A stretch of DNA of 64,000 nt from Ruminiclostridium josui JCM 17888 (GTDB lineage Bacteria > Bacillota > Clostridia > Acetivibrionales > DSM-1351). Shown one piece after another: positions 6,105 to 30,973 of the stretch. Location: the NCBI RefSeq assembly GCF_000526495.1, contig NZ_JAGE01000001.1, positions 1,238,001 through 1,302,000 on the forward strand, in the 5' to 3' direction. The notes beneath the pieces are model-generated. The model was not told where the DNA came from and did no database searches. It saw only the letters and a program-made list of their open reading frames with translations. The number at the start of each line of letters is the position of its first letter. Within the stretch, counting starts at the first letter, position 1. A program made the translations under genes and the position numbers.

Positions 6105-6146
6105 CTATTTATCCACCCTTGACATCAATGTGACGCACTCAACATG
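6105..6146 (-). pseudogene. 3'-terminal fragment of an RlmD/TrmA-type methyltransferase gene (junction A)
   Basis: The minus strand encodes HVECVTLMSRVDK and a stop. This is the typical carboxy-terminus of RlmD/RumA-type uracil methyltransferases; the intact gene at 30938 ends HVETICLMSKK. Nothing of the rest of such a gene precedes it. It is interpreted as a duplicated attachment-site half left by integration. Its sequence differs from the local rlmD end, so it may come from another rlmD allele or paralogue. Confidence 0.6.
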
Positions 6147-6275
6147 GGTCGAGTTGATGGAATTGATGTCTGCGGGCCACTTTAGAAACCATCTGTACGT
6201 GGGAATATGTCAATGTGTTTTTGGCTGTTTTTTGAAAAACCGTCGTTCAAGGAAACATATCAACCTAGTCCGAAT
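6147..6275. repeat. Left-end repeat of the integrated element, copy at junction A
   Basis: Starts GGTCGAGTTGATGGAATTG directly after the rlmD-type remnant and runs to GAAAAACCGTCGTTCAAGG. The same block follows the second remnant at 27458-27573, with roughly 80 percent identity by eye. Both contain GTACGTGGGAACATGTC-like motifs. It is read as the left end of the larger element. Confidence 0.6.
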
Positions 6276-6289
6276 AGGGCGAAAGATAT

Positions 6290-7651
6290 TTACTTGAATA
6301 CAACAATATACTTTTCTGCATATTCTCTAAAAGTTGTATCGACTTCTTCGCAAATCACACTTAATTCTTTGAAAACAGTGCCTCTCACGTAAGCATCTCT
6401 TAATTCTGGCTTTTTTAATAGTGCCCACTTTAATTGCTTGTATGAATATTTTGCAAATAAGATCCATTGTGTATAATTTATCGCCATCGGATTTTTTGTA
6501 AAGAGTATTTTACCGGCATTTATTGCAGTAATCGCTGAATGTCCTATAAACAGCATCGTGCTTAGTTTCGGATGTTTTTCTCGATTCAATGAAAACGGGA
6601 TAGATTCCTTTACTGGATAGCCTTCCTTTATTCTTTTGAATGCATATCCTATTCTAATCACTACTTCTATAATCATTGTCGGAATTGACATCGAACAGAA
6701 ATGAATGAAATCATAGCCTTCATAATACATTCCTTGTACTATTTCTGCTATCGTCTGTTCTTCTTCACCTATGTTGCCAAATTGAAGCAGATTAAATAGT
6801 CCCATCAACGGAACAGGTAATCCCATTGAAGTAGTAATGTCTGACTTGAAATGGATTATTTGCTTAGCAATTGCCGCAAATATATTGCTTTCTTTTCTAT
6901 CCGCATAATTTTCCATTACCTGAGTTACGATTTTTCCCGTTTTATCAATGGTTGTCATTCTGCCTGTCATAATATCAAACACACCGAATATCAGACCAAG
7001 CAAAGGATCATGTCCCAGAGATAACAGTCTGTGATAATACGCAGAAAGTCCGTTAACAAATTCTGTCGTGTTTCTATTATCCTGAGCATCATATGGAACC
7101 TTGCTAATTCTTGAATTTGCGAGCTTTTCCATTTCTTCTTCAGGAAACTTTTTATCAAACCACTCCCGTATATAATTCGACAAAGCACCTGCTTTAAGTC
7201 CATCAGAGGTTTTCTGTGGAATACCCACTAAGAGAATATCTACTGCTGCCCCTAATATTCCCGCCGCAGCACTTATTGTAATATCGAATTTATCAAGTCG
7301 ATGTACCGCATTGAACTCTTCATTTAACAGTTTGATTGCCTGCTCATTAGCTCGCAATTCTTCCTTGGTAAAAAGAGTTTCCAAATCTGTACTGTTACCA
7401 ACAGACTTCTCAGCCTCAGTGCACATTTCTTCCCAAGTAGGTACAATATGCTTTCTTCTCTCTGATAATGGTATAATCTTTGGAATATCAGTCAGGGAAT
7501 AACCAAGTGATTTTAGCAGTTCTTCACTCTCTGATATTCGTTTGTCCACTCCAGACATATCAGGACGTTGAATGCTCTTGAACTCTTGAGCCTGATAATT
7601 CAGAACATTATTTATTTGCTGTTCCCCATTAGAGTATTTGAACTTACTCAT
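6290..7651 (-). CDS. Predicted multi-pass membrane protein of a two-gene module, function unknown
   Basis: A 453-residue protein I do not recognise. The first 120 residues are soluble and charged; after that come several hydrophobic stretches, around ITISAAAGILGAAVDILLVG (about 124-143), LLGLIFGVFDIMTG, VPLMGLFNLLQFG, FCSMSIPTMIIEVVIRIGYA and TMLFIGHSAITAINAGKILF. Its ATG overlaps the stop of the upstream 182-residue gene by 4 bp, so the two are translated together. It is the first cargo gene inside the left end of the defence element. A membrane effector is a reasonable guess, without proof. Confidence 0.6.
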   Translation of the reverse strand: MSKFKYSNGEQQINNVLNYQAQEFKSIQRPDMSGVDKRISESEELLKSLGYSLTDIPKIIPLSERRKHIVPTWEEMCTEAEKSVGNSTDLETLFTKEELRANEQAIKLLNEEFNAVHRLDKFDITISAAAGILGAAVDILLVGIPQKTSDGLKAGALSNYIREWFDKKFPEEEMEKLANSRISKVPYDAQDNRNTTEFVNGLSAYYHRLLSLGHDPLLGLIFGVFDIMTGRMTTIDKTGKIVTQVMENYADRKESNIFAAIAKQIIHFKSDITTSMGLPVPLMGLFNLLQFGNIGEEEQTIAEIVQGMYYEGYDFIHFCSMSIPTMIIEVVIRIGYAFKRIKEGYPVKESIPFSLNREKHPKLSTMLFIGHSAITAINAGKILFTKNPMAINYTQWILFAKYSYKQLKWALLKKPELRDAYVRGTVFKELSVICEEVDTTFREYAEKYIVVFK

Positions 7652-8196
7652 GCGGTTTCACCTAAATCCTTCTTTAAATCTTTTATAGCTTGTGTCAACA
7701 GGATATTAAGACTCTGTAAATAATCCAGGCGCTCCTTATCTGCATTTGCTTCATCCTTCAACGCCAAAATAATGGCTTGATGCTTTTTAAGTGCTTCTTT
7801 ATATAAACGCTCTTTCTCCTGTCTAAGCTGTTTATGTTTTAAGTGAGATGCAAGACCAACACCACCTGCTGCCAATAAAGCAACCGGAGCAGCAAGTACG
7901 AAAACTCCGGCAACCATTCCACCACCAACAATACCGCCTGCCGCTGCAAGTCCCGATGTGATTCCTGCAGCAGATAAACCGACTGAGCCCAAACCATATA
8001 ATGCGGCAAATGAACCTACTCCGCCAATACCAGCACCAATAGCTCCTGCTAAAATTTCAGGAATAGCACTCTCTCTTACAGTTCGTGTCTTATCATTAAC
8101 AGCTACTGCTGCTTCGTTGATAACATTAACAACCTGCTGTAATGATTCTACACTTTGGAATACCATATCCTTCTTCTTTTTTATGTATTCACCCAT
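7648..8196 (-). CDS. Gly/Ala-rich membrane protein with flanking coiled coils, partner of the 453-residue protein
   Basis: A 182-residue protein. Residues 1-45 and 115-180 are polar and helical, and the C-terminal part is Lys/Glu/Leu-rich, consistent with coiled coil. The centre (about 48-112) is a long Gly/Ala hydrophobic region (GAIGAGIGGVGSFAALYGLG and similar), which could form a membrane hairpin or a pore. GGAAAGGTGG precedes the ATG. It is coupled to the downstream membrane-protein gene. I do not recognise a named family; the glycine-rich hairpin recalls bacteriocin or effector membrane segments, but this is inference. Confidence 0.58.
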   Translation of the reverse strand: MGEYIKKKKDMVFQSVESLQQVVNVINEAAVAVNDKTRTVRESAIPEILAGAIGAGIGGVGSFAALYGLGSVGLSAAGITSGLAAAGGIVGGGMVAGVFVLAAPVALLAAGGVGLASHLKHKQLRQEKERLYKEALKKHQAIILALKDEANADKERLDYLQSLNILLTQAIKDLKKDLGETA

Positions 8197-8271
8197 ACAT
8201 ATACCACCTTTCCTGTTTTACATACAGACACATTTCATATCATTATCATCATTGCAATTATAGTGAACCTC

Positions 8272-8301
8272 AACTGAACAAACATACATATTTGTTCAGT
8301 T
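8272..8301. promoter_or_regulatory. Perfect 11-bp inverted repeat between two cassettes
   Basis: AACTGAACAAA and TTTGTTCAGTT are separated by 8 bases. It lies between the stop of the nuclease gene and the start of the 182-residue gene on the same strand. It is AT-rich with no T-run, so an operator for the downstream module is at least as likely as a terminator. Confidence 0.45.
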
Positions 8302-8307
8302 CAGCAA

Positions 8308-9315
8308 CTAACCCCACGTCTTATATTTAAGTAACTCTGCGATCTCCTCAGTTCCAGGTAGTTTTTCTGTTTCAAGAATTTGTGTTAAATCAAACACTCG
8401 TGAGCCCATCGGTGCTCTGGGAGTTATCTTCTTGAAATCAGTATCGTAGAATTTTTCTACGAAAAAATATCTTGTAGCATCCATTACATAGCCATAGTTT
8501 TTACCATCTTCTCTTGCACGATCAATTTGCTGCTTTCTTTCTTCGGTCAATTCTCCAAGTTCGGCTTTATACTCAAGGCCATTTTCTGTAGTAACTGCAG
8601 TGATGATGGCATTGATTTTCCCGATTGCTCTTACACTTTTTTCTTTATATAGACCGAGATAATCATGTGCACTAAATCCACGCTCAATATCATCATAATA
8701 AAGGTTCTCACTAACATTAAAATTAAATGTAGTACCTGCCAGTTGTACTCTCATACGTTTCCATGAATCTGAAACAATTATGAGTTTATCGTTATAACAG
8801 TAATTCAAAAAGTCTTCTAAAACCTCTTGCATTTCATAATCCCTATCATCAATAACATCTCGTATCGCATCAATAATACCCTCGAAAGTGGTATTAACGT
8901 GCATGACAGGATATCTCTGTGTGGCATTATATTTCTTTAATTGGTCATCGAATTCTTTTTTCTTTTCTGGAGCCATCAACTCCGGTGCTAAAGTAATTAT
9001 TACTTTATACTTTTCATCACCAAAAGATTTTAAATGTCGTAGTAACTGATCTGAATAAAACCAGTCAGACATTTTTGTCTCAACAACAATTTTAAAGCTT
9101 TCTTGTGTAATGGTAGCATCTGGGATACTTTTAGTACTCTTTTCCTGAAGGTTAAAAACAATCTCTGGTTCAAAGGAATCTGAAAAGAATTCTGATTTCA
9201 GGAAACGAAAGAACTTATCTGAAGAGTATGAATATAGCCGAGATAATAGTAGCATCGTATTTGCTGTTGCGACATTCTCTTTCGCATGATATCTTTGGAA
9301 ATAATGAATCTTCAT
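8308..9315 (-). CDS. PD-(D/E)XK nuclease-like protein, last gene of a four-gene cassette
   Basis: A 335-residue protein. Near residues 64-83 the pattern PDATITQESFKIVVETK has the D-x(n)-E-x-K spacing of the PD-(D/E)XK nuclease fold, following an EPEIVF segment. The rest is mixed alpha/beta with no membrane segment. Homologues that I recall are annotated only as hypothetical. It begins 2 bp after the OGG-like gene and closes an operon read from the promoter at 11099-11127. A DNA-cleaving effector of a defence cassette is plausible but not demonstrated. Confidence 0.6.
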   Translation of the reverse strand: MKIHYFQRYHAKENVATANTMLLLSRLYSYSSDKFFRFLKSEFFSDSFEPEIVFNLQEKSTKSIPDATITQESFKIVVETKMSDWFYSDQLLRHLKSFGDEKYKVIITLAPELMAPEKKKEFDDQLKKYNATQRYPVMHVNTTFEGIIDAIRDVIDDRDYEMQEVLEDFLNYCYNDKLIIVSDSWKRMRVQLAGTTFNFNVSENLYYDDIERGFSAHDYLGLYKEKSVRAIGKINAIITAVTTENGLEYKAELGELTEERKQQIDRAREDGKNYGYVMDATRYFFVEKFYDTDFKKITPRAPMGSRVFDLTQILETEKLPGTEEIAELLKYKTWG

Positions 9316-9317
9316 AA

Positions 9318-10346
9318 CTATTTGTCCCCCCTAATTTTCTTTCCATAGGTTTTAGGGAAGTAATCCTTCCCAAGTAACCAAAGATACTGATCAATTTGCT
9401 TCAGGTTATATTTATCCAAGCCATAGAAAGCACGAAAATTTATCAGTATACGTTTAAATTTAATATATTCTTTCAAATCACCATCTGGGAAATCTGAGAA
9501 TCCATCACGATTTCTAAAATATCGAAGCACCTCATCGACGTAGCTGTCATAAATCGGATAATCGAGTGGATTGTGATGGCTGCAATACTTTGTGGCAAAA
9601 GAGTAAAAATTCTTCTCTGTATCGCCGATATTTACATACTGGATGTCTCCAACAAGAGTAACATCTCCAGCCTTAAGCCTCGTATCAATATTCAAAGTAC
9701 ATATGTGCTTGGCCACTGGATAGATAGAGAAAATATTTGTACTATAAAAGTCGTTAAGCGCTGATGCTTTCAAAAGGACATCAATAATGTCCGTATTATT
9801 TGGACATAGCTCAAAGAACAGCTTATTAAGTGCATTCTCCTGCAGGCGATAGTTCTCAAGTGTATTCCACTTAGCAAGATATAACTCAACCTGTTCAGTT
9901 GATGGTTGAGGAACATTAATCTCAGTTTTTTTCTTACGTCTATATGTACGATTAGCAGTATTATCCTGCTTAGGCGTTGATGTTTCAGCAGTTCCGTCAG
10001 AAGCTAAGAATAAACGGAATCTTCTTAAATGAGACAAATAACTATTAACTAGTGAATTGACATTACCTGTCGAGTTCTCAGAAAGAGCCTTAATTAATGC
10101 CTCTTTCGCATCATTCTCAAAAGCAGGCGAAGTTACCGTATTCCAAAACAGGTCTTTACTCCCTTTCCTCCAGAGGTAGAAGGTATCAACATAAGATGTG
10201 TTTATAGTTGCCTTTGCAATACTCTGACTATGTAGGAATTCTCTATATAAGGCACGTAACTCATCATACGATAGCGTTTTTATTTTGCTTATATCCAATT
10301 TCGGTGTCCCCTTTATAATATTGTTTAAACTCTTATTCCTCTTCAC
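9318..10346 (-). CDS. Uncharacterised protein with OGG-like C-terminal segment
   Basis: A 342-residue protein. The N-terminal 115 residues are helical, followed by a low-complexity, basic linker (RTYRRKKKTE, about 133-142). The C-terminal half has FATKYCSHHNPLDYPIYDSY (about 245-264), a pattern I associate with proteins labelled 8-oxoguanine DNA glycosylase OGG-like; that link is weak. No tyrosine-recombinase R...HxxR...Y set is present, so it is not an integrase. It overlaps the upstream 107-residue gene by 14 bp and is followed at 2 bp by the nuclease gene. Confidence 0.5.
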   Translation of the reverse strand: MKRNKSLNNIIKGTPKLDISKIKTLSYDELRALYREFLHSQSIAKATINTSYVDTFYLWRKGSKDLFWNTVTSPAFENDAKEALIKALSENSTGNVNSLVNSYLSHLRRFRLFLASDGTAETSTPKQDNTANRTYRRKKKTEINVPQPSTEQVELYLAKWNTLENYRLQENALNKLFFELCPNNTDIIDVLLKASALNDFYSTNIFSIYPVAKHICTLNIDTRLKAGDVTLVGDIQYVNIGDTEKNFYSFATKYCSHHNPLDYPIYDSYVDEVLRYFRNRDGFSDFPDGDLKEYIKFKRILINFRAFYGLDKYNLKQIDQYLWLLGKDYFPKTYGKKIRGDK

Positions 10347-10656
10347 TATTTGAATATTTTTCTATCAAAGCGAAAATATAAGCAGTATTTCTTGATTTTC
10401 TGCTGACCTCATGCCTAACACCCGTTTCTCCATTAACCCAGCGATCATAATATGAATGTATAAATAAAAAATCTTTCTTTGATATTGCTCTTTTCATTGA
10501 TAGCTCGCTGGAAGGCGAATTGTAAATAGCCCTATCAACATACAACCTTCCATCACGGGACGATGCAGTAAACCAAAGACCTGTTGTAGTTTGTATTTCT
10601 ACTCCCGATGATGATAAAACCGAAGTTACGTGATTCCATAGTGTTTCACCATTCAT
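10333..10656 (-). CDS. Small protein of unknown function in the nuclease cassette
   Basis: A 107-residue, soluble, mixed-composition protein that I cannot place in a family. Its ATG overlaps the TAA of the upstream Phd/HARE-HTH-like gene by one base (TAATG), and its own 3' end overlaps the next gene by 14 bp. This tight packing argues that it is real and made in fixed ratio with its neighbours. Confidence 0.55.
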   Translation of the reverse strand: MNGETLWNHVTSVLSSSGVEIQTTTGLWFTASSRDGRLYVDRAIYNSPSSELSMKRAISKKDFLFIHSYYDRWVNGETGVRHEVSRKSRNTAYIFALIEKYSNSEEE

Positions 10657-11063
10657 TACTCTACACCATCCTTTAATTTGATATAGTTACCGGGGAGGGC
10701 CTCAAATAATTCCGGGTAATGCCCACACCTCGCCCTAATCTGTGTATATTGCGCTTTCTTCCCGTTTTTCTGCAAATACAACCTACGTTTGTATATTTCA
10801 TCTGCCAGCTCAGATGCATGCATAGTTTTGTTTTCAACCTCTGATAGCACTATCTTCATAGCTTCCTGAAGTGTATAGTTAGCATGCTTGTCTGCGACAT
10901 TATCAGCAATTATGTCCTTTTCATCGTATTTCAGCACAATATAAGCAGGCTTATTATCTTTAAGAAGAACGACTTTTCCGTTCTTTTCTACCACTGAAAA
11001 AACATGTTCCAGATCAGTTCGTAATAAATCAAAGGGTATTAAACTATCTATTTTTACGTCCAT
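10656..11063 (-). CDS. Phd-like N-terminus with HARE-HTH-like winged helix
   Basis: About 135 residues. The first half resembles Phd/YefM antitoxins (FDLLRTDLEHVF, then KNGKVVLLKDNKPAYIVLKY), which bind DNA and often autoregulate. The second half (TLQEAMKIVLSEV through IRARCGHYPELFE) looks like a HARE-HTH winged helix, found in restriction and chromatin-associated proteins. The ATG at 11063 has GAGGTG 6 bp upstream; the GTG at 11072 lies inside that site. It is the first gene of the cassette and probably its regulator or DNA-binding subunit. Confidence 0.62.
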   Translation of the reverse strand: MDVKIDSLIPFDLLRTDLEHVFSVVEKNGKVVLLKDNKPAYIVLKYDEKDIIADNVADKHANYTLQEAMKIVLSEVENKTMHASELADEIYKRRLYLQKNGKKAQYTQIRARCGHYPELFEALPGNYIKLKDGVE

Positions 11064-11098
11064 ACTTTTCACCTCGACCGACTAGGTTTGTTACCATG

Positions 11099-11127
11099 AT
11101 TATACATCTGATTAACCACTTTGTCTA
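11099..11127 (-). promoter_or_regulatory. Sigma-A-type promoter of the four-gene cassette
   Basis: TAGACA and TATAAT on the minus strand with a 17-bp spacer, about 36 bp upstream of the first ATG of the cassette. This is one of the best promoter matches in the window. Confidence 0.65.
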
Positions 11128-11159
11128 TATAATTGTTCATATATTTGTATAAATAAGAA

Positions 11160-11196
11160 GACCGCCAATTGAGGTGTAACCCTTTGATTGGCGGTC
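11160..11196 (-). terminator. Hairpin ending the recombinase remnant
   Basis: GACCGCCAAT and ATTGGCGGTC form a perfect 10-bp stem around a 17-base loop, 10 bp after the recombinase stop codon. The following minus-strand sequence is T-rich (TTCTTATTT). Confidence 0.6.
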
Positions 11197-11206
11197 AATC
11201 ATAACT

Positions 11207-11785
11207 TTACATCTTAACGTCGAGTTCAACTCCTGACCTAAATTCGACAGTTAGTTTTTCATCAAATACTGTTATCTTTTCAATAAGCCTTCTTACTAAC
11301 TGCTCATCATATTCTTGTAATTCAACAGACTGGTCATGTATAAACTTCATCATTTCTTCTATACGTTCCCGCTTGCCTTCACGCTCAGCATTCTCGGCCA
11401 GTATGTTCTGCTTGAGTTCACGCAGATGGTAAATTTCATCCGCCACTTTTTGATAGTCTGCTTTTGTATTGACCAGTTGAAGAAGCTCTTGCTGCAGCTC
11501 ATTTAGCCTGCTTTCTATCTCTTGAATGGTCTGGTCGTTATCCTCATTTAAAACTGCCGCTATGTTCTCCTGCAGAACAGTAAGGAAGGTATTTTTACTT
11601 TCTAACACCTCATTGATTGCCTTTACTACAGCATCTTGCAGCGTAGCTTCACTAATAGTCCTAGAGGAGCAATCAGAACCCTTCTCTTCCAAGCGGCTGA
11701 CACACCGCCAGACGATGGATTTGCATCCTCTGTTGTTCCAATGCACTCTGCGGTAAATATCTCCGCAGTTTGAAACCGCGAATTT
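11207..11785 (-). pseudogene. C-terminal remnant of a large serine recombinase
   Basis: The open frame on the minus strand reads NCGDIYRRVHWNNRG, then WRCVSRLE and DCSSRTI. This is the zinc-ribbon domain of large serine integrases, followed by the coiled-coil C-terminus rich in Glu/Leu. About 190 residues remain of a normal 500 or more. The resolvase catalytic domain with its Ser nucleophile is missing, and the frame is closed by a TGA upstream of the zinc ribbon. It cannot be an active recombinase. It shows that an integrated element once occupied this spot. Confidence 0.8.
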
Positions 11786-11988
11786 TCACGCGTTACCCCA
11801 CGCCCGTTTCCGGGGCAAAAAGTGGTAGAGATTTAGACCCCCCTACCCCAGAAACTGCAGAAAATCTCAAAAGTTAAGCTAATCTTAGGATTTCGTGAGA
11901 TTTTTTGCATCTATTTAAAGCCGTTAATCGGCATTGTTTTCAAATTTAAGTATTAACCTTTTTTTAGAAAAGAGGCGAGTGTTTTAAT
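11786..11988. other. Gap between recombinase remnant and IS21 genes, with a GC-rich phage-like block
   Basis: No gene is seen. Positions 11798-11860 are unusually GC-rich for this window (a GGGGTAGGGGGGTCTAAAT run on the minus strand, then CCGGAAACGGGCG). From memory this resembles the sequence ahead of terminase small-subunit genes in many Firmicutes phages. The rest (11870-11988) is AT-rich and probably contains the 3' end of the IS21 element; I could not define its terminal repeat. Confidence 0.35.
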
Positions 11989-12675
11989 TTATCTGTCAGT
12001 CAAGCGAATGATCTGACAATTTGCTGTTATTCTATCTAACAGAGTCTGACAAAGATGTTTGTCTTCCACTACATATAACCATGTAGATATTTCTCGATTG
12101 GTAATAAAAATGATACTTCTTGTTTCATTAAGAAAGGTAACTGCTCGATAAAAAGCCTGCAACTCTGACCTGGTTGGTTCTAGATAAAATACATCATCAA
12201 TAATAATCAAGTCGCATTCCCGCATATAGGAGAAGGTTGCGCCTGCTTTTGGGTTTATATCTTTGTTCTCTACAATATATATAAAAACATCAATGGATGC
12301 ATAGTAAGTTTTATGTCCATTGTCGATCGCTGTTTCTCCAAGATGAACTGCAAGACTAGTTTTGCCTGTCCCGCATTTACCAAGCAGAATAATGTTTTGT
12401 TCTTCATTGAGCCACGTCAGATGGGATAATTGTTTTATCTGCCATTCCAAACCTTTGTTTAAATTCGATGCATCAAATACTTTGTTGGGAAGTTTGCTTG
12501 CCCTTCTTAGCTTGATCTGTTTTTGTCTGGCTCGTATCTCTAGTTCTTTTTGTAATATCATTTGAAGATAATCTAGGTTGGACAGTTTCTCATCATTCAA
12601 ATCAATATATCCCCTGGCAATATTCCATAGATTTAGCTTCTTAGCCAACTCGCGGATTTCAGTTATATCAGCCAT
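11989..12675 (-). CDS. istB: IS21 helper ATPase IstB
   Basis: A 228-residue AAA+ protein related to DnaC. Walker A is LLGKCGTGKTSLAVHL (about residues 97-112) and Walker B is DLIIIDDVFYLEP. The N-terminal region carries the IstB helical domain. IstB assembles on DNA and selects target sites for IstA. Its ATG overlaps the end of istA by 8 bp, the usual coupling in IS21 elements. Length is slightly short of the common 240-260 but no key motif is missing. Confidence 0.88.
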   Translation of the reverse strand: MADITEIRELAKKLNLWNIARGYIDLNDEKLSNLDYLQMILQKELEIRARQKQIKLRRASKLPNKVFDASNLNKGLEWQIKQLSHLTWLNEEQNIILLGKCGTGKTSLAVHLGETAIDNGHKTYYASIDVFIYIVENKDINPKAGATFSYMRECDLIIIDDVFYLEPTRSELQAFYRAVTFLNETRSIIFITNREISTWLYVVEDKHLCQTLLDRITANCQIIRLTDR

Positions 12676-14140
12676 CGATTTCCCTCCTTATCTCCTTGCT
12701 ACGTGTCAGATGGTTGAAATACTGTTGATTTGGTAAGAACTTCTTTGCTATCTGCTCACCATGCTTATACATTATGTAAGCCAAAAGTTCATAGGCATTG
12801 CAGCGTTCAGTCTCAATACAGTATCTTATCCCATCAAGCATTTGCTCCATCGAATAAAACTTCGTCATGCGATTTAAGCGAATGCAATGGCTATTAAAAT
12901 ATTTTGTTTGTTCTTGTTCCATCCGCCGTATAAATTCCTGAGCGATTTCATGCTCTGCAAAATATTGTTTTATAAGAGCATGAGAAACCCTGTTTCTGTT
13001 GTTTTTTTCCTCAGCTTTGAATATCTGTCCAGTATCTTCTGTTACTGGATACTTAGCTAATAATTCATTAGTATCGGTATCATAAAATAGAAGTATTTTA
13101 CCATCATCCTCTATACGTATGCGTTGATGTGCATCCATCACACCGACATCAATCTGATAACGATTCCCTTTATAGCTGACCACTCCATTGGAATCAAAGG
13201 ATGCTACAGTACTTGATACCTCTGAATATGGTTTAACATGAAAAAGCTGTTTTTGTTCTTCAATAAACATTTCTCGTGGCACTTTTCTAGTCACAGTATG
13301 AACTCTCCCGTTGCCTTCTCTATCCAACCATGCAAGAGCTGCACTGTTAAGACTGTCAATTCCGGTATATACCCTCCCCTCCAGAAAACTTTGCTTAACA
13401 TATCCAATGACCTCTTCTACCTTGCCTTTACTCTGAGGATCTCTTGGCCTGCATAATGAAACACTGTAGCCGATACGCTTTACATATTCTTCAAAGGCCG
13501 GTACAAATATAATATTACCTAGATTTTCGCTAACCACATAGACCCGATCAAGATCATATAGAATTGTCTGTGGTCTTCCTCCAAAATATTGAAATGCATA
13601 GTTATGAGCTTTTATGGCTGTTTCGGTCGTGAAGGGATCCGGTGAAAAGCAAACAAATTTCATTCTGCTATAACTCAGAACCATGCAAAAGGAATATACC
13701 CGCACAATTCGTCCATACATATCTTTAAGTTTATATTGACCAAAATCAGCCTGAGCTTCATATCCTGGTGGCGAGACTTCACGTGGCGAGATTTTCTGCT
13801 TACTGGTATGCTGATACCCATGCTGTTCCCTTAGGGCTTTCATATAGCGATAGAAAGTAGCTCGTTTAACTTGTAAATCAGGAAAAGCTTCCATTAATTT
13901 GAGATAGATATTCGTATCCCGGATTTGTGGGCATATTTTCAATTGCTCTAATATGTACTGTCGATAATTATCCATATGATACTTTTCCTGCTCAGCTTCC
14001 CTGGCATAATCTTCTTTGCTCATATTCCAGTATTTACTGACAGAAGTATAGGTGAGCCCCAGCGCTTTAGCAGTTTTGGTCTGGGCAAGTCCAAGTGCTT
14101 TGTATTCCTGGATTTTTTGATATTGCTCGATACCGATCAT
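12668..14140 (-). CDS. istA: IS21 transposase IstA
   Basis: A 490-residue transposase. An N-terminal helix-turn-helix (QTKTAKALGLTYTSVSKYWN) is followed by a DDE integrase core: first Asp in AQADFGQYK (about 132), second in ILYDLDRVY and Glu in KGKVEEVIGYVK. A Mu-like C-terminal beta domain and basic tail follow. IstA catalyses cut-and-paste or replicative transposition with IstB. An AGGAGG-like site precedes the ATG. The frame is intact. It lies just downstream of the drmB gene, read in the same direction. Confidence 0.9.
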   Translation of the reverse strand: MIGIEQYQKIQEYKALGLAQTKTAKALGLTYTSVSKYWNMSKEDYAREAEQEKYHMDNYRQYILEQLKICPQIRDTNIYLKLMEAFPDLQVKRATFYRYMKALREQHGYQHTSKQKISPREVSPPGYEAQADFGQYKLKDMYGRIVRVYSFCMVLSYSRMKFVCFSPDPFTTETAIKAHNYAFQYFGGRPQTILYDLDRVYVVSENLGNIIFVPAFEEYVKRIGYSVSLCRPRDPQSKGKVEEVIGYVKQSFLEGRVYTGIDSLNSAALAWLDREGNGRVHTVTRKVPREMFIEEQKQLFHVKPYSEVSSTVASFDSNGVVSYKGNRYQIDVGVMDAHQRIRIEDDGKILLFYDTDTNELLAKYPVTEDTGQIFKAEEKNNRNRVSHALIKQYFAEHEIAQEFIRRMEQEQTKYFNSHCIRLNRMTKFYSMEQMLDGIRYCIETERCNAYELLAYIMYKHGEQIAKKFLPNQQYFNHLTRSKEIRREIDG

Positions 14141-14223
14141 TTTTAATTCCTCCTTTTGTTGTGTTATCCAAGTAATAATGTGTATATCAGTGCAAGCATA
14201 AGCATCACCCCCTTAAAATAGCA

Positions 14224-14275: not shown

Positions 14276-14434
14276 TATATAGCCCATACATTAATTTATA
14301 TACCCTCTAGTACAGAAGTTTTCGTCAACAGCATTATGTGTATATTTTTCCTATCAATAATTATTGTCAAGTTATCCAAATAACATATCTTGTAAAGACA
14401 GGTTTGTATTCTTTTGCCTTACAAAGATATAATT

Positions 14435-16288: not shown

Positions 16289-16292
16289 TGAC

Positions 16293-23818: not shown

Positions 23819-26715
23819 TAATAACCTCCCTCACTTTCAATGTCCAACGCGGCGATAGTTTTCAAACCCGCTGGAGTGTTGATTTGCGGAGGGGTTTCCG
23901 TGTTTTTGAAGGCTTGGAGCTTTTGAGCGCACATTGCCTTAAAGTCGCAACTAACACAGTTCTGTGGACAAGCTCTCATAGGAAAGTCACCAATGAGTAT
24001 CCCTTTGACAGCCCATTCAATAACACCGATGGCGTTGTTTACGGATTGGTTGTCCACTGGCACAGCAGTACGCTGATTGTCTTTTAATGTATGTATATAA
24101 CCTGTTTCCACATTTTCGCCTAAAACCTCTTTTGCCGCCTTTGAGTATAATTGCACCTGAACAGACATATCCCGCCAATCATAAGATGCAACGTCCTCAG
24201 GTGTTTCCATCGACTTAAAGTCGATAACATCCGCTGTAATAATACCTCTTTTTGGATCTTCCAGCAGAAGCAAATCAATGGCTCCTGTTATCAATGCATC
24301 CTTAACTGAAATTTCAAAACGCGCCTCGTCTTGCCGCAAGCGTCCAAAGTCGGATGCATATCTATACGAATATTCAGTCATTATGCGCTGTACAAGTTGC
24401 TTTGCACGTTCATATGAACCTGGACGGTTGACGGGATCGTTGCTTGGGAAAACATGCTTCAACATGAAAGTTGATTCCACGATTTCCTCTACTTCATCCG
24501 CTGTGGGTGTCCTGTCTTTGAATTTCTGATGCAACCGTTCTAAAATAGTGTGACTCGTTTTCCCAAACCCGAATAATTCTGGTACTGCTGCATTGTAACC
24601 GTATATGGTAGAGAGCTTGTAAGAATACGGACATTTCAAATATTTTTTTACAGATGAATAGTCTGTCGGTAATTCGCTATCAGCAAAACGTGGAGTAGGC
24701 TCCATCTTTTCAGCTAACTCGTCAAATGTCAAATCTTCTCGCATATTCGGATGGTTTAAATTTATGATAAATTGCGACCGTCGTTTTCCACGTTTCAACC
24801 CTGGATGTGATGTACTACCGCTCATGTACAAAATGCGTTCAGCACGAGTAATAGCAGTGTAAAAAAGACGAGCTTCATCTTGGACACGACAACCATAAGC
24901 GCCACGGCTAATTGCATTCATCATGAGTGGTTGTGGTATCAATCCATTATATGTTTCATTTCTGCCTGGGAAACGTTGCGACACCAAATCAGCCACGAAC
25001 ACAACAGGAAATTCTAAGCCCTTGACCTTATGTATAGTGGAAATGTTAACAGCATCGTCCTTTGTAATGTAGTCAATTGGTTCCAATTCATAACTGTTCT
25101 GTGCAATGTTAGAAAGAAAATTTAACATTTCGCGATAACGTCTGGGAGAGTCAATGCTGACATAGGTTTGCTCAACATCCAATATGATTTTGCTAAACAG
25201 TCCCAAATCACGCAATGCTATTTCATTGTTTTCAATAGCACGAAGCATAAGTGCATCCAACAAGTCATGTAAAAACTGCTGTGGGTACACCTTGCGCCTT
25301 ACACTCTCGCACGGGGCATGTATCTCTTGCTGCCAGTGCTGTAGCACCTGAAGATATTTGACCTTATCCGCTTGTGGAAAATTGGGCAACACTTGCTCAT
25401 TAAATATCCTTTCTGCCGCTGTTCTATCATTTGTACTATCACGTAATAATTCCATTATTGACAAAATACACTGTGCGTATGGGCGATCAAAGATCCCACC
25501 TTCTCCTGTAGTTTTGCATGGAATACTCAAGGCTTGCAAAGCATTTACAAATTGAACATCACGGTTTTCACCATAGGAATTATGTATGCTGCGAAGCAAG
25601 ATGGCAAAATCACTATAAGTTAACCCGCGTCGGCTTTTCTCGGTTCCGTCTGGATTGTATTCAATATAAGTAGTTCCAATAAGAGATTTAATCCGATTTG
25701 CTATCCATTGTGCCTCTTCATCACGAGTAGTAAACCAGAGTTTACGAAGGTCTTGTATATTTCTATCAGAATTGGAGCTTATATCTTTTGGCAATCGTTC
25801 GTAATTAAGATTTGCCTGCACAAAACTATTTGCCGTTTCAACAATCGCCTTGGTGCTTCTAAAATTGATAAGCAATTTATGTATAGAAACATCGTTATAT
25901 CTGTCTTTAAATGTCAATATATTCTGGACATTTGCACCACGCCAGCCGTAGATGGCTTGGTCATCATCTCCAACCACAAACAACATGTCCAGATGATTGG
26001 CGAATGTTTTGATGAATTCCTCCTGAATGGGATTAATGTCTTGATATTCATCGACAAAAAGATATTTGTATTTTTCGATATATGATCCACCTTTGAGAGA
26101 GATTTTCTTTAATTCATCAACCGCTAACCTAATAGCATATGAAAAATCCATATAGCCATCGTTGAGCAGCTTTGAGGCTAGATTCGAAAGCTGCGTATAC
26201 AATACTGTGTCATGTTTTGCAATATCACTCAATGGAATATTCTCATTATTAAGTGTTTGCCATGCTTTTGTGAGTTCATTTATCGTTTTGAAATATCCTC
26301 CATTACTCTGAATTTCTAATTGGTAGAAGCGCGACATTACAAACAGAATCAACCCGTTCTGATCAAGGATATCAAACTGGCGATACCTCGCATCAATATT
26401 GCCAATCAGTTTTTGGCAGAAAGAATCCAATGTTCCTATGAACATAGCACCTATATAGTTTTCTGGCAATCCGAATTTATGTAGTGCCTCTGCCACTCTG
26501 CGTTTTATTGATTCGGCGGCCTTCTCCGTAAACGTAAAAGCGACAATGCTTTCGGGAGACTCCCCCTTAGAAACCAAATACGCAATTTTATAAGCAAGCG
26601 TTCGAGATTTTCCCGAGCCAGCGCAAGCCAAACAAAGGATATGCTTTGATTCGTCTACAACTGCGTTGTACTGTTCATCTGTTAAGTTAGTCCGCAGGAT
26701 TTCTTCAGTAGTCAT
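23818..26715 (-). CDS. UvrD/PcrA-type helicase fused to a PD-(D/E)XK nuclease with Fe-S cysteines
   Basis: About 965 residues. SF1A helicase motifs: CAGSGKSRTLAYK (I), TFTEKAAESIK (Ia), FVDEYQDINP (II), GDDDQAIYGWRGA (III), LLINFRST (IV), ISTIHKVKGLEF (V) and YTAITRAERI (VI). The C-terminal 250 residues are an AddB/Cas4-like nuclease: GAIDLLLLED and VIDFKSME (D...D-x-K), with one Cys in LKCPYSYK and three in CPQNCVSCDFKAMC that would hold a 4Fe-4S cluster. GGAGG lies 5 bp before the ATG at 26715. It heads the DISARM operon, coupled to drmMII; such a gene is not a named DISARM core component. Confidence 0.82.
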   Translation of the reverse strand: MTTEEILRTNLTDEQYNAVVDESKHILCLACAGSGKSRTLAYKIAYLVSKGESPESIVAFTFTEKAAESIKRRVAEALHKFGLPENYIGAMFIGTLDSFCQKLIGNIDARYRQFDILDQNGLILFVMSRFYQLEIQSNGGYFKTINELTKAWQTLNNENIPLSDIAKHDTVLYTQLSNLASKLLNDGYMDFSYAIRLAVDELKKISLKGGSYIEKYKYLFVDEYQDINPIQEEFIKTFANHLDMLFVVGDDDQAIYGWRGANVQNILTFKDRYNDVSIHKLLINFRSTKAIVETANSFVQANLNYERLPKDISSNSDRNIQDLRKLWFTTRDEEAQWIANRIKSLIGTTYIEYNPDGTEKSRRGLTYSDFAILLRSIHNSYGENRDVQFVNALQALSIPCKTTGEGGIFDRPYAQCILSIMELLRDSTNDRTAAERIFNEQVLPNFPQADKVKYLQVLQHWQQEIHAPCESVRRKVYPQQFLHDLLDALMLRAIENNEIALRDLGLFSKIILDVEQTYVSIDSPRRYREMLNFLSNIAQNSYELEPIDYITKDDAVNISTIHKVKGLEFPVVFVADLVSQRFPGRNETYNGLIPQPLMMNAISRGAYGCRVQDEARLFYTAITRAERILYMSGSTSHPGLKRGKRRSQFIINLNHPNMREDLTFDELAEKMEPTPRFADSELPTDYSSVKKYLKCPYSYKLSTIYGYNAAVPELFGFGKTSHTILERLHQKFKDRTPTADEVEEIVESTFMLKHVFPSNDPVNRPGSYERAKQLVQRIMTEYSYRYASDFGRLRQDEARFEISVKDALITGAIDLLLLEDPKRGIITADVIDFKSMETPEDVASYDWRDMSVQVQLYSKAAKEVLGENVETGYIHTLKDNQRTAVPVDNQSVNNAIGVIEWAVKGILIGDFPMRACPQNCVSCDFKAMCAQKLQAFKNTETPPQINTPAGLKTIAALDIESEGGY

Positions 26716-26858
26716 GATAACCTCCATATCAATTTGTATTTTTTCAGTTAAGTCGCTATTTTTCTTTTCCAGCTAAAACTCCAAAGAATTCTGATTCTAA
26801 TTTACCTATATCAATTATGAAATAACCTCAAATGGGTCTGAACATTGTGATACAAGCA

Positions 26859-27071: not shown

Positions 27072-27320
27072 CATAATCACCTCTATGTATGTATAATTAC
27101 ATAATATCATTAGCATCATCATATTGCAAACATTTTATTTACGTTCGCATGATTTTTGATTTGTATTCAATAATTCTTACTCCAAATCCTTCTAAATCCT
27201 ATGCTATAATCTCAGGTGTATAGAATGTTACATCTATCCTGTCTCCTCAACCCTACTAATTTATCTATTCTGTCCACTCACCCCTACCTAATTTCAGACT
27301 CATTTTTACTACAAAAAAAC

Positions 27321-27366
27321 ACCCTCGATATGTTTCCATGTACCAATATCGAGGGTTTAAGTCGAG
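27321..27366. repeat. Right-end repeat of the larger element (junction B)
   Basis: ACCCTCGATAT and ATATCGAGGGT form a perfect 11-bp inverted repeat around GTTTCCATGTACCA, followed by AAGTCGAGTTGACAG. Nearly the same block occurs at 30837-30882. Just outside it (27238-27292) are CTGTCTCCTCAACCC and CTGTCCACTCACCCC motifs, inverted relatives of GTCGAGTTGACAG. Read as the right end of the element that starts at 6147. Confidence 0.62.
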
Positions 27367-27457
27367 TTGACAGATTTACTTTTATTTTATGAAACCCAGT
27401 ATTTTCAATGGTTACCGAGCTTTATTTCTTAGACATCAAGCAAATGGTCTCAACGTG
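27367..27457 (-). pseudogene. Duplicated 3' end of rlmD (junction B)
   Basis: About 90 bp repeat the rlmD 3' region at 30883-30973 with around nine differences by eye, including the coding end HVETICLMSKK and its stop (27422-27457) plus about 55 bp of downstream flank. The copy breaks off at the HVE codons, where element left-end sequence begins. This is the classical signature of site-specific integration into a gene's 3' end. Confidence 0.75.
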
Positions 27458-27573
27458 GGTCGAGTTGATGCAATTGATGTCTGGGGGTTATTTTTTATAG
27501 TATCTGTACGTGGGAACATGTCAATCGGTTTTCGGTTATTTTTGAAAAACCGTCGTTCGAGGGAACATGTCTA
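27458..27573. repeat. Left-end repeat of the Thoeris element (junction B)
   Basis: Begins GGTCGAGTTGATGCAATTG right after the rlmD remnant and continues through GTACGTGGGAACATGTCAA and GAAAAACCGTCGTTCGAGGG, matching junction A at 6147-6275. Together with the preceding CTCAACGTG, the first bases form an imperfect palindrome, as in a recombinase core site. No gene is present before the stop of the first TIR gene at 27643. Confidence 0.62.
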
Positions 27574-27642
27574 CGGCACTATTCTTCTTTAATACGTTCT
27601 TGGAAACAAGTCAATGGTAATATTGAGTTCTCATTGTCTGCA

Positions 27643-28158
27643 CTATAACCCCATTGCATTCTTAACAGATTGATAATCCCAATAATGCTTGCCATCTTTC
27701 ATTTTTTGCATTGGAGCGTGCGTACCATACTCTTTAATGACATCGGGGCACTTGCTTTTATTAACAGTTGCCGCATTATATAGTATTACAATTTTGATAT
27801 TTTCTCTATCTCGAACCGCCTTTTTGCACTCATATTCGATGAAACTGTCATTACTTACTGTATGCCCCGTTTTGCACTTACCGTTGTCGAAGTTCGAACA
27901 ATATGTGCATTCACCTGATCTGCGGCTTTTGGTGTTACTCCCAACAATCAAGACAAATGTTTTAGAGGCATCCATTCTCATAGCAAGGGATGCCTTGATG
28001 CTACAGTTCAAGCTATCATCCCGTGCCTGAGTGAGATCATGAGCATCAGTAAATGATAAACTCCATTTCTCACCATCATTCCATTCACGCAGTTTATCAA
28101 CAGCGTTTTTGTCGCCGTCCCAGTCTGCCGCAATATACGTCTTTGTTCTGTAAGCCAT
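27643..28158 (-). CDS. thsB: Thoeris TIR-domain protein ThsB (first copy)
   Basis: A 171-residue TIR-like (MTH538/DUF1863) protein. It opens with YRTKTYIAADWDGD, the strand A and BB region of ThsB proteins, and has a SFIEYECKKAV helix whose Glu is the likely NAD-cleaving residue. A cysteine-rich insert (CTYCSNFDNGKC) precedes it and could bind zinc. In Thoeris, ThsB senses phage and makes an NAD-derived signal. It starts 2 bp after thsA with its Shine-Dalgarno inside the thsA 3' end. Two TIR genes around one effector suggest recognition of different phages. Confidence 0.78.
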   Translation of the reverse strand: MAYRTKTYIAADWDGDKNAVDKLREWNDGEKWSLSFTDAHDLTQARDDSLNCSIKASLAMRMDASKTFVLIVGSNTKSRRSGECTYCSNFDNGKCKTGHTVSNDSFIEYECKKAVRDRENIKIVILYNAATVNKSKCPDVIKEYGTHAPMQKMKDGKHYWDYQSVKNAMGL

Positions 28159-28160
28159 GA

Positions 28161-29000
28161 TTATTTTTCTCCTTTCAGTTCATAAAGATTTATAGTTTCT
28201 AACGCCTTTTTCGTAAGAATTATGGATATCTGAACATTTTCATCAAAAGTGACGTTACTCGTCCGAAGAGTACAGAGAATACATCTAAGCAGTTGCTCAT
28301 TTGGCTTATCCGTCATATCGTCGAGTCGAGTAAGTCCACCGCCGATAAGCGGAATGTTTATCGGTTTGCCTTGATATGTACGATTAATTTCTTTCCACAT
28401 CTTTCGCAGAGTATTTTCATATTCGGCACGGTTTGTGTGTGCCTCGTTTTGCTCATTAAAATGTGTTAAAGCCAACATCATAACATCTTGAAAAACCTTG
28501 ATTGTACCCAGCTCATATCTTGTCTTTGCACCATCGGTTGACTCATATCTCTGCAAAGGACTTCTGTTATCTGTAGCAATAGCTAGTTTAAGCGCTTCCT
28601 TTTCATCATCGGAAAGAGAGTCTATATATTTCCCGTTAAGAGAATTATGCGCAACAATTATATCGTCAACCTGAGTGTCGAAGTACTCATTGAATGGGAT
28701 AAGCTTCCAGCCATTAGCAGAGAATATATCTCCCTGTTTCACAATAACTTTCATACCACGAATATTCAACGTAACCTGATTTTTTGTAAGTTTACGCTTT
28801 ATATATATCGTTCCGATAACAAGTACAACATACACAAGTGTAACTACTCCAATCTGGGCAGGCAGTTTGCCTATACAGTTGAGCGAGAACGACGTGAAAC
28901 CTACTACAATTCCTATTCCACCAAGTATCGTAAATGCGAGTTTGAGGCTGTCTGTCAGGATTTTTGGAAGCAGTGATATTATCTGCTTTATTCCTTTCAT
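28161..29000 (-). CDS. thsA: Type II Thoeris effector ThsA (two TM segments and macro-like domain)
   Basis: A 279-residue protein with two N-terminal membrane helices (about residues 19-42 and 50-67) and a C-terminal macro-like domain (about 80-270): VKQGDIFSANGWKLIPFNEY, DDIIVAHNSLNGKY and the phosphate-loop-like IPLIGGGLTRL. This is the arrangement of type II Thoeris effectors, where the macro domain binds the TIR product (histidine-ADPR) and the membrane part then kills the cell. Its ATG overlaps the stop of a 45-codon ORF by 4 bp. It is flanked by TIR genes on both sides. Confidence 0.8.
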   Translation of the reverse strand: MKGIKQIISLLPKILTDSLKLAFTILGGIGIVVGFTSFSLNCIGKLPAQIGVVTLVYVVLVIGTIYIKRKLTKNQVTLNIRGMKVIVKQGDIFSANGWKLIPFNEYFDTQVDDIIVAHNSLNGKYIDSLSDDEKEALKLAIATDNRSPLQRYESTDGAKTRYELGTIKVFQDVMMLALTHFNEQNEAHTNRAEYENTLRKMWKEINRTYQGKPINIPLIGGGLTRLDDMTDKPNEQLLRCILCTLRTSNVTFDENVQISIILTKKALETINLYELKGEK

Positions 29001-29134
29001 AACATTAACACCCCTTTATTCAACAACCTCATCTTTTTCATCTCCCTATACATAATATCAACTTTGAAGTCAAGTTCTGACGTATTGAGAAACAGTTTTG
29101 CCACGAAAATATGGTTTTTATCACTATATGTCAT
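28997..29134 (-). CDS. Overlooked 45-residue ORF coupled to thsA
   Basis: ATG at 29134 preceded by GAGGAG at 5 bp spacing opens a 45-codon ORF that ends in a TGA overlapping the thsA ATG (ATGA). It begins 9 bp after the upstream TIR gene stop, so the whole space between the two genes is coding. The product (start MTYSDKNHIF, centre VDIMYREMKKMR) is charged and probably helical, without a membrane segment. I do not recognise it. The signals for translation are as good as those of its neighbours; it may be a regulator of ThsA or only a coupling ORF. Confidence 0.6.
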   Translation of the reverse strand: MTYSDKNHIFVAKLFLNTSELDFKVDIMYREMKKMRLLNKGVLML

Positions 29135-29143
29135 TTTTACTCC

Positions 29144-29698
29144 TCACTTTATCAACCCCCATTGTATATAAGCATCTCTGCAGTAATAATTTTTACCGTT
29201 GCTTAAGTGTTTTCCATTGACATGAAACTGTGTGATTGCGTCCAAAATACAATCCTTTATGAAAGCAATATGTATTGCTTCTGTCCCAGATTTATTTATT
29301 CGGTCGGCGAGAGCCTTCGGCCATAGATTACTTAAAGCGTCAACATTGAGAATTGCTGAGTACCCAGGATACGCTATTATCAGTGGAATTTTGTAATTGT
29401 CAATTGCTTGCTCGATTTCGTAAGAAAGCACACTTCCAGTATAACGTGTATCCTCTGTGAGAATAACAAGCATATTTTTTGACGCCCTTAACCTTTCCTG
29501 AATTCGAGCATATAGTGTAGCTTTTAAACTTGAATCACGGACGGCATATGTTTTTTCGTGGCTATTCGTAATGTTAAACTCGATGTTACTGTTTGCACAC
29601 CATGCCAGAATAGTAGCATAGTATCTGAAGTCAGACTTGGTAGGGTCGGTTTCACCTAATCCATCAAAAGCGATATATGTTCCAGTTCTGTTTGCCAT
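29144..29698 (-). CDS. thsB: Thoeris TIR-domain protein ThsB (second copy)
   Basis: A 184-residue TIR-like protein. It starts NRTGTYIAFDGLG, parallel to the opening of the other copy, and has SVLSYEIEQAIDN with the candidate catalytic Glu. NMLVILTEDTRYTGS is the strand and loop before it. The two TIR proteins clearly share a fold but differ along most of their length, so they did not arise by recent duplication. GGAGGG lies upstream of the ATG. It is the first TIR gene of the Thoeris operon and is followed at 9 bp by the 45-codon ORF. Confidence 0.78.
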   Translation of the reverse strand: MANRTGTYIAFDGLGETDPTKSDFRYYATILAWCANSNIEFNITNSHEKTYAVRDSSLKATLYARIQERLRASKNMLVILTEDTRYTGSVLSYEIEQAIDNYKIPLIIAYPGYSAILNVDALSNLWPKALADRINKSGTEAIHIAFIKDCILDAITQFHVNGKHLSNGKNYYCRDAYIQWGLIK

Positions 29699-29745
29699 TA
29701 TCGATTTCCCTCCTTATTCCACACCCAGAGCGTTATTTATATTTA

Positions 29746-30603
29746 CTAAAATTCATCACATATAAAACCGCATTTAGGACAAACATTCTCGTAACGAGAA
29801 TAACCGGAATACTTACACCTTGGGCAATTACAGTAATGTAACTGTGTATTGGCTTCATTAAGCTGCTTTTGAAGTTCTGGTAACACTTTCTTTATAAAGT
29901 CAATATACTCGTTACTCACTATTTCACCATGGATACCTCTGTTTGCGATTTTTATGATTTGATTTATTAAATCTACTGTTTTGCAATTTAATAATTCACA
30001 ACGATAGAGATGCCTCACCATTTCATGTGTAGATTTATTACTGTTATAATTTGTTTTTTCACATAAATCAGCCAACATTTTCTCAAGCATTAACCTAACT
30101 TTGAATAAATAGATTGATTCTTCAGTAACTTCAAAATCAATTTCACTTGTCACACCTTTTGATTCTTCAATATTCGATATAGTGCTAGTTTCATTATAAT
30201 TATCAGATTTGGTATTTGCTTTAGTTATAAACTCTTCAATCAATTTTTTAAGTTTATGTTCATTAGGAAGAAAATCACTTCCAAAATTTATTGTATTAGC
30301 ATTTGAATTAGAAATTCTTAATTCCATAATTTGCATACGAATGTCATTTAGATTTTCTTTAACTTCGGCTTTTACTTTATCTATTTCTCTTTTTAGCTTT
30401 AATCCAAATAACTCCATTTCGGAAAACAAAGGAAGTAATAGTAAAATTAGCCAAACGATGAAGATTAGATTTTTCGCATTTAGTTTTTCTAGTTGGTAAA
30501 TATCGTCTCTGTAATATAAAATATATATAGTACTTAGAGATAAAAGGATCAAATACCACCAATTATTTATTAAATAAGAAACTATCTTTCCCTTGAATTT
30601 CAT
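29746..30603 (-). CDS. Membrane protein with coiled coil and C-terminal zinc ribbon, upstream of Thoeris
   Basis: A 285-residue protein. Two hydrophobic helices lie at the N-terminus (about 13-29 and 44-60), followed by a charged coiled-coil region (LKREIDKVKAEVKENLNDI), a helical domain with a DUF4145-like feel (MLEKMLADLC, IANRGIHGEIV) and a zinc ribbon at the end (CPRCKYSG...CPKCGF). No named family is certain. It ends 47 bp before the first TIR gene on the same strand and lies inside the same element, so it is either an added component of this Thoeris locus or separate cargo. Confidence 0.6.
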   Translation of the reverse strand: MKFKGKIVSYLINNWWYLILLSLSTIYILYYRDDIYQLEKLNAKNLIFIVWLILLLLPLFSEMELFGLKLKREIDKVKAEVKENLNDIRMQIMELRISNSNANTINFGSDFLPNEHKLKKLIEEFITKANTKSDNYNETSTISNIEESKGVTSEIDFEVTEESIYLFKVRLMLEKMLADLCEKTNYNSNKSTHEMVRHLYRCELLNCKTVDLINQIIKIANRGIHGEIVSNEYIDFIKKVLPELQKQLNEANTQLHYCNCPRCKYSGYSRYENVCPKCGFICDEF

Positions 30604-30836
30604 ATCATAACCTCAACTAACAACATATTTTATTAATGTCCTAGTAGAGCTTGTATATAGTCCATTAATTCAAAATTATTATATAAAAAAATGGAAATGA
30701 TTTCAATCAAAATGAACCAATTTTGTCTTCCTTTTACATCCATTCTGTCTCCTCAACCCCTATAAAAAATGCCCGTTATCTAATCTGTCAACTCAACCCT
30801 ACCCATTTTTGAGCTCAAAATTCACCCCATAAATAC

Positions 30837-30882
30837 ACCCTCGATATGTTTCCACGTACCCATATCGAGGGCTTAGGTCGAG
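30837..30882. repeat. Right-end repeat of the Thoeris element (junction C)
   Basis: ACCCTCGATAT and ATATCGAGGG flank GTTTCCACGTACCC, then TTAGGTCGAGTAGACAG. It matches 27321-27366 almost base for base. CTGTCAACTCAACCC at about 30785 is the inverse of the GTCGAGT-GACAG motif. Region 30604-30836 between the membrane-protein gene and this repeat contains no gene. Confidence 0.62.
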
Positions 30883-30973
30883 TAGACAGATTTACTTTCA
30901 TTTTATGAAACCCAGTATTTTAAATACTTCACGAGCTTTATTTCTTAGACATCAAGCAAATGGTCTCAACATG
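30883..30973. repeat. Chromosomal attachment region: 3' end of intact rlmD (junction C)
   Basis: This segment is the original of the 91-bp direct repeat found at 27367-27457. It covers the last codons of rlmD and about 55 bp downstream. After CTCAACATG the intact gene continues with its own sequence, while the copy at 27457 switches to element DNA. Confidence 0.7.

Follow-up and report, generated by a model that had tools for sequence, protein, structure and literature searches.

Tandem phage-type elements carrying defense genes at the 3' end of rlmD in Ruminiclostridium josui

In this study, we analyzed a 64,000-nucleotide stretch of the Ruminiclostridium josui JCM 17888 genome (contig NZ_JAGE01000001.1, positions 1,238,001 to 1,302,000; hereafter referred to as "the window"), in which two elements stand in tandem at the 3' end of rlmD. 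One carries a Thoeris defense system, and the other carries Bunzi and DISARM genes. The best explanation, to which we give a probability of roughly 0.85, is that the rlmD 3' end is the bacterial attachment site (attB) of a prophage family, and that prophages, their remnants and small cassettes use the same ends and stack there. A preliminary description of the window had proposed two tandem elements at this site, one Thoeris and one DISARM, and had called rlmD an integration hotspot. Both proposals are supported, the hotspot being already known from streptococci and Erysipelothrix.

The window contains one rlmD gene and three rlmD-type 3' ends with the same terminal motif (CTCAACATG at 6138-6146 and 30965-30973; CTCAACGTG at 27449-27457), which lie exactly where they had been described. 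Reading leftward from rlmD, the parts are as follows.

30938-32314, minus strand: rlmD, the target gene (RlmD-type uracil methyltransferase gene)
30894-30973, minus strand: element-borne 3' end completing the present rlmD (HVETICLMSKK); predicted crossover TG at 30972-30973
30731-30893, plus strand: right end (RE) of element 2
27458-30973, unstranded: element 2, 3.5 kb, a recombinase-free Thoeris cassette
27449-27575, plus strand: left end (LE) of element 2; predicted crossover TG at 27456-27457
27378-27457, minus strand: rlmD tail carried by element 1 (HVETICLMSKK)
27225-27377, plus strand: RE of element 1
6147-27457, unstranded: element 1, 21.3 kb, a decayed prophage with Bunzi and DISARM
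6138-6265, plus strand: LE of element 1; predicted crossover TG at 6145-6146
6008-6146, minus strand: displaced rlmD 3' end (tail HVECVTLMSRVDK) with a terminator, the left arm of the first junction

The present rlmD joins element 2, with its four-gene Thoeris unit, at CTCAACATG; element 2 adjoins element 1, with its long gene block; and element 1 adjoins an older rlmD 3' end. The LE block follows the first two sites and the RE block precedes the last two, confirming the earlier assignment by profile matches, although both copies of each end had themselves contributed to the profiles. The segment 30831-30973 is repeated at 27315-27457 with 91% identity (E 6e-52). The leftmost rlmD fragment, previously placed at 6105-6146, does exist, but it is longer and includes a terminator hairpin, as the tail plus hairpin (6009-6146) match the rlmD 3' flank of genome G015 at 80%, and positions 5987-6147 match that of G020 at 81%. 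The array continues beyond the window, as the same genome has another LE roughly 1 kb outside its left edge and a further three at 155-217 kb to the left. A gene for a protein with an XRE-type helix-turn-helix and a MazE/AbrB-like domain lies at 5414-5851, just left of the array, and the nearby LE about 1 kb outside the window suggests a further element there.

To describe the ends, alignments of nine LEs and five REs were turned into sequence-only profiles. Among the 58 genomes of the order, the LE was found in 29 and the RE in 25, across other families of the order, while a reversed decoy gave no match at E <= 1e-4 for either profile (in 1.6 Mb of collected locus sequence rather than whole genomes). 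Positions were counted in the nine genomes having rlmD and the matches on one long contig, with G036 and G047, which have no LE or RE match, standing outside the count. At E <= 1e-6, 24 of the 29 LEs and 20 of the 25 REs are oriented as expected and no more than 350 kb downstream of rlmD, as compared to expected numbers of 1.2 and 1.0; the 350-kb bound was picked after the matches had been seen. A pattern scan of GTDB genomes returned 26 stretches, 24 with Firmicutes-type titles and the other two from metagenome-assembled genomes titled Fervidobacterium and Prevotella, and a scan of IMG/VR returned five contigs. A single-motif search of the R. josui genome gave three matches at the window's ends, four elsewhere and one control match. 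The RE had been described as a "ACCCTCGATAT hairpin". The block itself stands, but the hairpin was dropped as an essential feature because it is not conserved: its right arm is absent in G006, L004 and L085, where the left arm and two CTCAACCC-type motifs persist.

The core of the junctions is CTCAAC(A/G)TG, and the predicted crossover dinucleotide, TG, sits within the CAY codon of the RlmD motif HVE; in both window elements, the junction with rlmD is at the HVE codons. Dyad symmetry at the crossover dinucleotide is expected of a large-serine-recombinase site, and dyad matches centered on TG averaged 13.4 of 24, versus 4.9-8.6 at 16 other centers. The six residues following HVE are RlmD-like (above the 99th percentile of shuffles) at every one of the 64 testable junctions. 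These junctions include the window's own two and many relatives and are thus not independent; two others had too little sequence for the test, which relied on 28 typed tails (one of them shortened) and excluded the window's own. Among 11 genomes of the genus, the mean pairwise identity of rlmD is 0.90-0.93 over the 30 bases preceding HVE and drops to about 0.3 beyond the thirtieth base from its start, as if the rlmD tail had been replaced in most lineages. The tails after HVE are very variable among close relatives and recur across species (L005-L034), and the displaced tail in G002 is similar to the intact tail of G009. The ends resemble attachment sites used by serine-recombinase prophages for integration at the 3' end of rlmD.

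Full-length relatives of this kind were found. The IMG/VR viral contig G101 is 99.65% identical to window positions 6008-11767 over 5,760 bp and continues past the point where the window's recombinase gene is broken, with a complete rec1 (Resolvase, Recombinase and Zn ribbon domains), a 143-aa gene, a 519-aa gene, and capsid and portal genes. To the left of its LE, unlike in the window, are an RE and a type I restriction-modification (R-M) system. In G101, the bnzB homologue (L150 11246-12607) is broken up over two open frames of 280 and 163 aa, as compared to one of 453 aa in the window. In G002, an LE at 3365130 and an RE at 3418969 bound about 54 kb beside rlmD (3419174), and this span encodes three serine recombinases (523, 137 and 530 aa) along with phage genes, while its right end carries an MspI-type R-M pair. 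In G045, LE-RE spans of 52, 13.7 and 3.7 kb follow in a row towards rlmD, the last adjoining it. The PHROGs names are integrase, endolysin, holin and tail for the corresponding G045 and G042 genes, and major head protein for a G002 gene. A complete large serine recombinase is present in G101, G045 and G002, but absent from element 2 and represented in element 1 only by a C-terminal fragment; likewise, these three have phage structural genes, while none occurs among 18 scanned open reading frames (ORFs) of the window elements.

The same 18 ORFs include no tyrosine recombinase, and this type of enzyme was rejected as the integrating one. They also bear on whether the elements were inserted beside rlmD by a Tn7-like or other transposon. 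Repeated subterminal motifs at both ends would fit such an insertion, but no Tns-type gene (Pfam) was found among these ORFs, the only DDE domain being that of an IS21-family pair, and the insertion has exchanged the 3' end of rlmD instead of flanking it with a short target duplication, making a transposon highly improbable.

An intact 519/150/521-aa recombinase module is present in this genome at C1:1057037-1060583, about 185-210 kb from the window elements, and is a candidate helper. In the surrounding region, C1:1020690-1082954 (L004, L091, L145), this module is accompanied by an AbiE cassette, a TmtA-type gene and further LE and RE blocks that have RlmD tails, with no rlmD beside any of them; the region is either a single island of great size or a part of the array that has been displaced. 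Near-identical left ends and left flanks also occur in records of Streptococcus gallolyticus, Peptoniphilus faecalis and Metalysinibacillus jejuensis (L102, L113, L121), a likeness that suggests one recently spread element.

In the mechanism that we propose, the rlmD 3' end would be the attB of a family of tailed-phage prophages whose serine recombinase module consists of three genes (about 522, 140-160 and 525 aa), and crossover would take place at the TG of the core. Each element brings its own in-frame rlmD 3' end, leaving RlmD open after insertion. Because one and the same peptide motif is encoded by the arms of both element and host, the right attachment site (attR) would again be an attB, and the left one (attL) would resemble that of the phage (attP); the next element would then enter between the last one and rlmD, so that a stack would form with the newest element next to the gene. 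The same ends are used by prophages, by IS21-interrupted remnants such as element 1, and by 2-4 kb cassettes without a recombinase such as the Thoeris unit, these cassettes most likely being moved in trans or en bloc with a neighboring prophage. The sequences themselves establish that the ends are shared, that the site is in rlmD, that the gene's tail is exchanged, that the elements stand in tandem, that a prophage form exists and that the Thoeris unit has moved horizontally; the choice of recombinase, present-day excision, mobilization in trans and the sequence in which the elements arrived are inferred.

Element 2 carries the following genes between its ends, with no recombinase gene among them.

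27643-28158, minus strand: thsB (TIR-like)
28161-29000, minus strand: thsA, macro-domain type
29144-29698, minus strand: second thsB (TIR-like)
29746-30603, minus strand: 285-aa protein with no assigned function

ThsA and a TIR-type ThsB, by which Thoeris is recognized, are thus both present. The same unit occurs in the congener G006, 77-80 kb from the rlmD of that genome, with 92.5% DNA identity over window positions 27448-30888, starting at the crossover site, whereas the rlmD genes of the two genomes (G000, that of R. josui, and G006) are only 71% identical. This difference indicates that the Thoeris unit moved between species together with its ends. A near-identity DNA search of phage records for the unit returned nothing.

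Fifteen distinct LE-RE spans close within single loci: ten are recombinase-free (2.0-3.8 kb) and five have a recombinase fragment (13.7-21.2 kb). In this count, L152 was merged with L079 and two overlapping L037 spans were taken as one, the 52- and 54-kb prophages, which extend over several loci each, were left outside, and the sizes are biased since most loci examined were shorter than 20 kb. About half of the ten recombinase-free cassettes have recognized defense genes, namely AbiEi/AbiEii (L004), Thoeris (window, L079), a prokaryotic Argonaute with a SIR2 partner (L116), and a protein kinase with defense-model matches (L117); the LE beside the AbiE unit precedes a 1528-aa TmtA-type gene. 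The others, some of which are clearly without defense genes, carry a radical-SAM/MazG/phosphoesterase set (L085), a 377-aa protein without assigned function (L119, Lutispora), a two-component pair (L133), a GNAT protein (L141), and ABC/TetR pieces (L037). In L128 (2068-5070; G012 C1:2977-2980 kb), three REs are about 1.4 kb apart, with a MerR/Cass2-type regulator in one interval and no LE recognized; such close spacing suggests that very small cassettes may exist.

It is conceivable, and we put it forward tentatively, that a phage integration system has turned into an integron-like stack of defense cassettes. In this reading, resident rlmD-site prophages would act in trans to insert and excise cassettes that have complete phage attachment ends but no recombinase. 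As attR would be a renewed attB and the inner junctions look like attP, only the part from a junction to rlmD could leave. If so, defense systems would be gained next to rlmD and lost last-in-first-out, or carried off with a prophage. As a rival to the explanation by stacking at a prophage attachment site, the elements might be decayed pieces of old rlmD prophages, with the Thoeris unit being a prophage stripped to its ends and cargo, and nothing moving now. Decay is evident in element 1, where an IS21-family element sits at rec1 codon 337, and some cassettes (L037, L141) have only fragments. However, we find this rather doubtful, given that the Thoeris unit and its ends passed together between two species whose rlmD genes are only 71% identical, and given the different intact cargo of the recombinase-free spans, ten cases in all.

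Several observations weigh against, or limit, the explanation by a shared prophage attachment site. The profile search did not find the LE in 29 of the 58 genomes of the order or the RE in 33. Five of the 29 LEs and five of the 25 REs lie off the expected region, seven of these ten being without a complete RlmD tail: among the LEs, one joins an RlmD-like tail, two are without core and tail, and two are partial internal matches; among the REs, two join an RlmD-like tail and three are without a complete one. The preliminary description had named end blocks in unrelated contexts as a sign against its own proposal, and some were thus found, but they look like displaced or decayed copies and do not tip the balance against the 24 LEs and 20 REs in place. 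In G007 and G009, the LE profile matched only in part and at places far from rlmD. The LE model includes the core, so that HVE is partly built in; the tail test covered the six residues after it. The recombinases are on the rlmD-proximal side in G006 and in phage phi-SsuFJNP3_rum, implying that at least two arrangements share the site. A DNA search of 291 genomes of the class for the Thoeris unit matched four, with the whole unit in only two (G000 and G006) and 66-71% identical fragments in the others. Neither a circular form nor an empty site in the same strain was observed. Finally, the two Thoeris copies differ in their rlmD tails, the similarity stopping at 30888, some 85 bp short of the core. 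Such a difference is not predicted by plain conservative integration, so that some exchange between the RE and the core took place as well.

This last point raises the question of whether the elements spread mainly by homologous recombination, with the conserved ends and rlmD tails as homology arms and the cargo swapped without a recombinase. The two Thoeris copies, with different tails but matching ends and cargo, fit this idea, as do the tail and terminator of the window and G101, which are 99.65% alike despite different left neighbors. On the other hand, it does not account for: the sharp crossover point with dyad symmetry common to the junctions; the serine recombinases and phage genes in full-length relatives; and the stacking in one orientation, which homology alone leaves unexplained. 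We therefore regard it as unlikely to be the main route.

Element 1, previously described as a 21-kb DISARM element, has the bounds assigned to it, but it is not a simple DISARM element. It is really the left end of a prophage with Bunzi cargo and a recombinase fragment, followed by an IS21-family element and then by DISARM:

6290-7651, minus strand: bnzB (Bunzi; PADLOC E 1e-66)
7648-8196, minus strand: bnzA-like, partial match (PADLOC E 2e-10)
8308-11072, minus strand: four genes without clear match (8308-9315, 9318-10346, 10333-10656, 10656-11072)
11207-11746, minus strand: rec1, a large serine recombinase gene cut at residue 337, of which the C-terminal part remains (homology reaching to 11767)
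11768-14215, minus strand: IS21-family element with istB (11989-12675) and istA (12668-14140); right limit approximate
14435-16288, minus strand: drmB
16293-19970, minus strand: drmA
19952-22579, minus strand: drmE (DrmE_C domain by Pfam; no PADLOC match)
22661-23818, minus strand: C5 cytosine methylase, DrmMII-like
23818-26727, minus strand: UvrD-type helicase with a PD-(D/E)XK domain

The DrmA, DrmB and DNA methylase that characterize DISARM are present, DrmE being recognized by Pfam only, and no DrmC-type protein was recognized in this unit. Four other LE-RE spans of 13.7-18.0 kb (L085, L086, L138, L139) have the same plan with restriction-type genes. An IS21-family element adjoins rec1 codon 336/337 in five loci (window, L085, L086, L138 and L073), and the N-terminal part of rec1 is absent in the first four of these, in which the sequence covers the other side of the element. 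In L139, the recombinase remnant consists of residues 493-522, and in L142 the IS21-family copy is without a recombinase match next to it. Another drmB/drmA pair, which is divergent, is present at L036 8068-13298 (C1:1036068-1041298), about 215 kb left of the window's DISARM, and is 28% and 31% identical to the window's pair. Boundaries therefore matter, as what had been taken for one DISARM element is two cargo blocks joined via a decayed prophage.

Previous studies, cited here from excerpts, had reported that rum/rlmD is a target of phages and of integrative and conjugative elements (ICEs) (PMC4288039, PMC4701971, PMC12785378), and that rlmD lies beside phiEr670 and beside prophages of other Gram-positive bacteria (PMC12785378). 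In streptococcal rum, the 18-bp attB mapped for phage Phi-m46.1 contains the core CAYGTKGAG, so that it shares both gene end and core with the window elements (PMC4288039). The excerpts on rum-site phages mention no recombinase-free defense cassettes. Streptococcal ICEs in rumA use a serine integrase and exchange the 3' part of rumA, but they have a single integrase with the att site inside its gene, and in the excerpts of that survey serine integrase triplets target other genes (PMC4701971). The G045 recombinase shares 70% identity with one from phi-SsuFJNP3_rum and 60% with one from phi1605. Like the window array, phi-SsuFJNP3_rum has an old RlmD-like tail near its far end; it differs in having its recombinases next to rlmD and no LE or RE profile match in its two 10-kb end stretches.

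According to excerpts of PMC5704250, cis-mobilizable elements (CIMEs) have no integration genes, keep both att sites and are stacked by integration into attR, and the window elements resemble them in having lost integration and transfer genes and kept attL and attR. They stand in tandem with each other, the intact recombinase module of the candidate helper being about 185-210 kb away in the same genome. The window elements differ from CIMEs in that their parents are serine-recombinase prophages, their cargo is often anti-phage, and several units are only 2-4 kb. The staphylococcal cassette chromosome (SCC) elements of staphylococci use serine recombinases (Ccr) at the 3' end of rlmH, a 23S rRNA methyltransferase gene, and form composite tandem islands. 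Here, the target is instead an RlmD-type uracil methyltransferase gene, and the SCC parents are not known to be prophages. The window elements thus fit the CIME features tested; they are not SCC, which use another gene, and not Tn7-like.

While rlmD/rum as a phage and ICE site and tandem accretion, as in CIMEs, are already known, the recombinase-free 2-4 kb cassettes with phage ends, about half of them with defense genes, look new. We found no description of recombinase-free defense cassettes at rlmD in the open-access PMC literature, which is no proof of absence. These findings provide a concrete route by which small defense systems (Thoeris, AbiE, the Argonaute/SIR2 pair) may travel as units on phage attachment sites without a recombinase of their own, account for the sharp variation of the RlmD C-terminus among close relatives, and supply end sequences with which further cassettes can be found by position. 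Part of the defense repertoire of many Firmicutes is thereby tied to one address.

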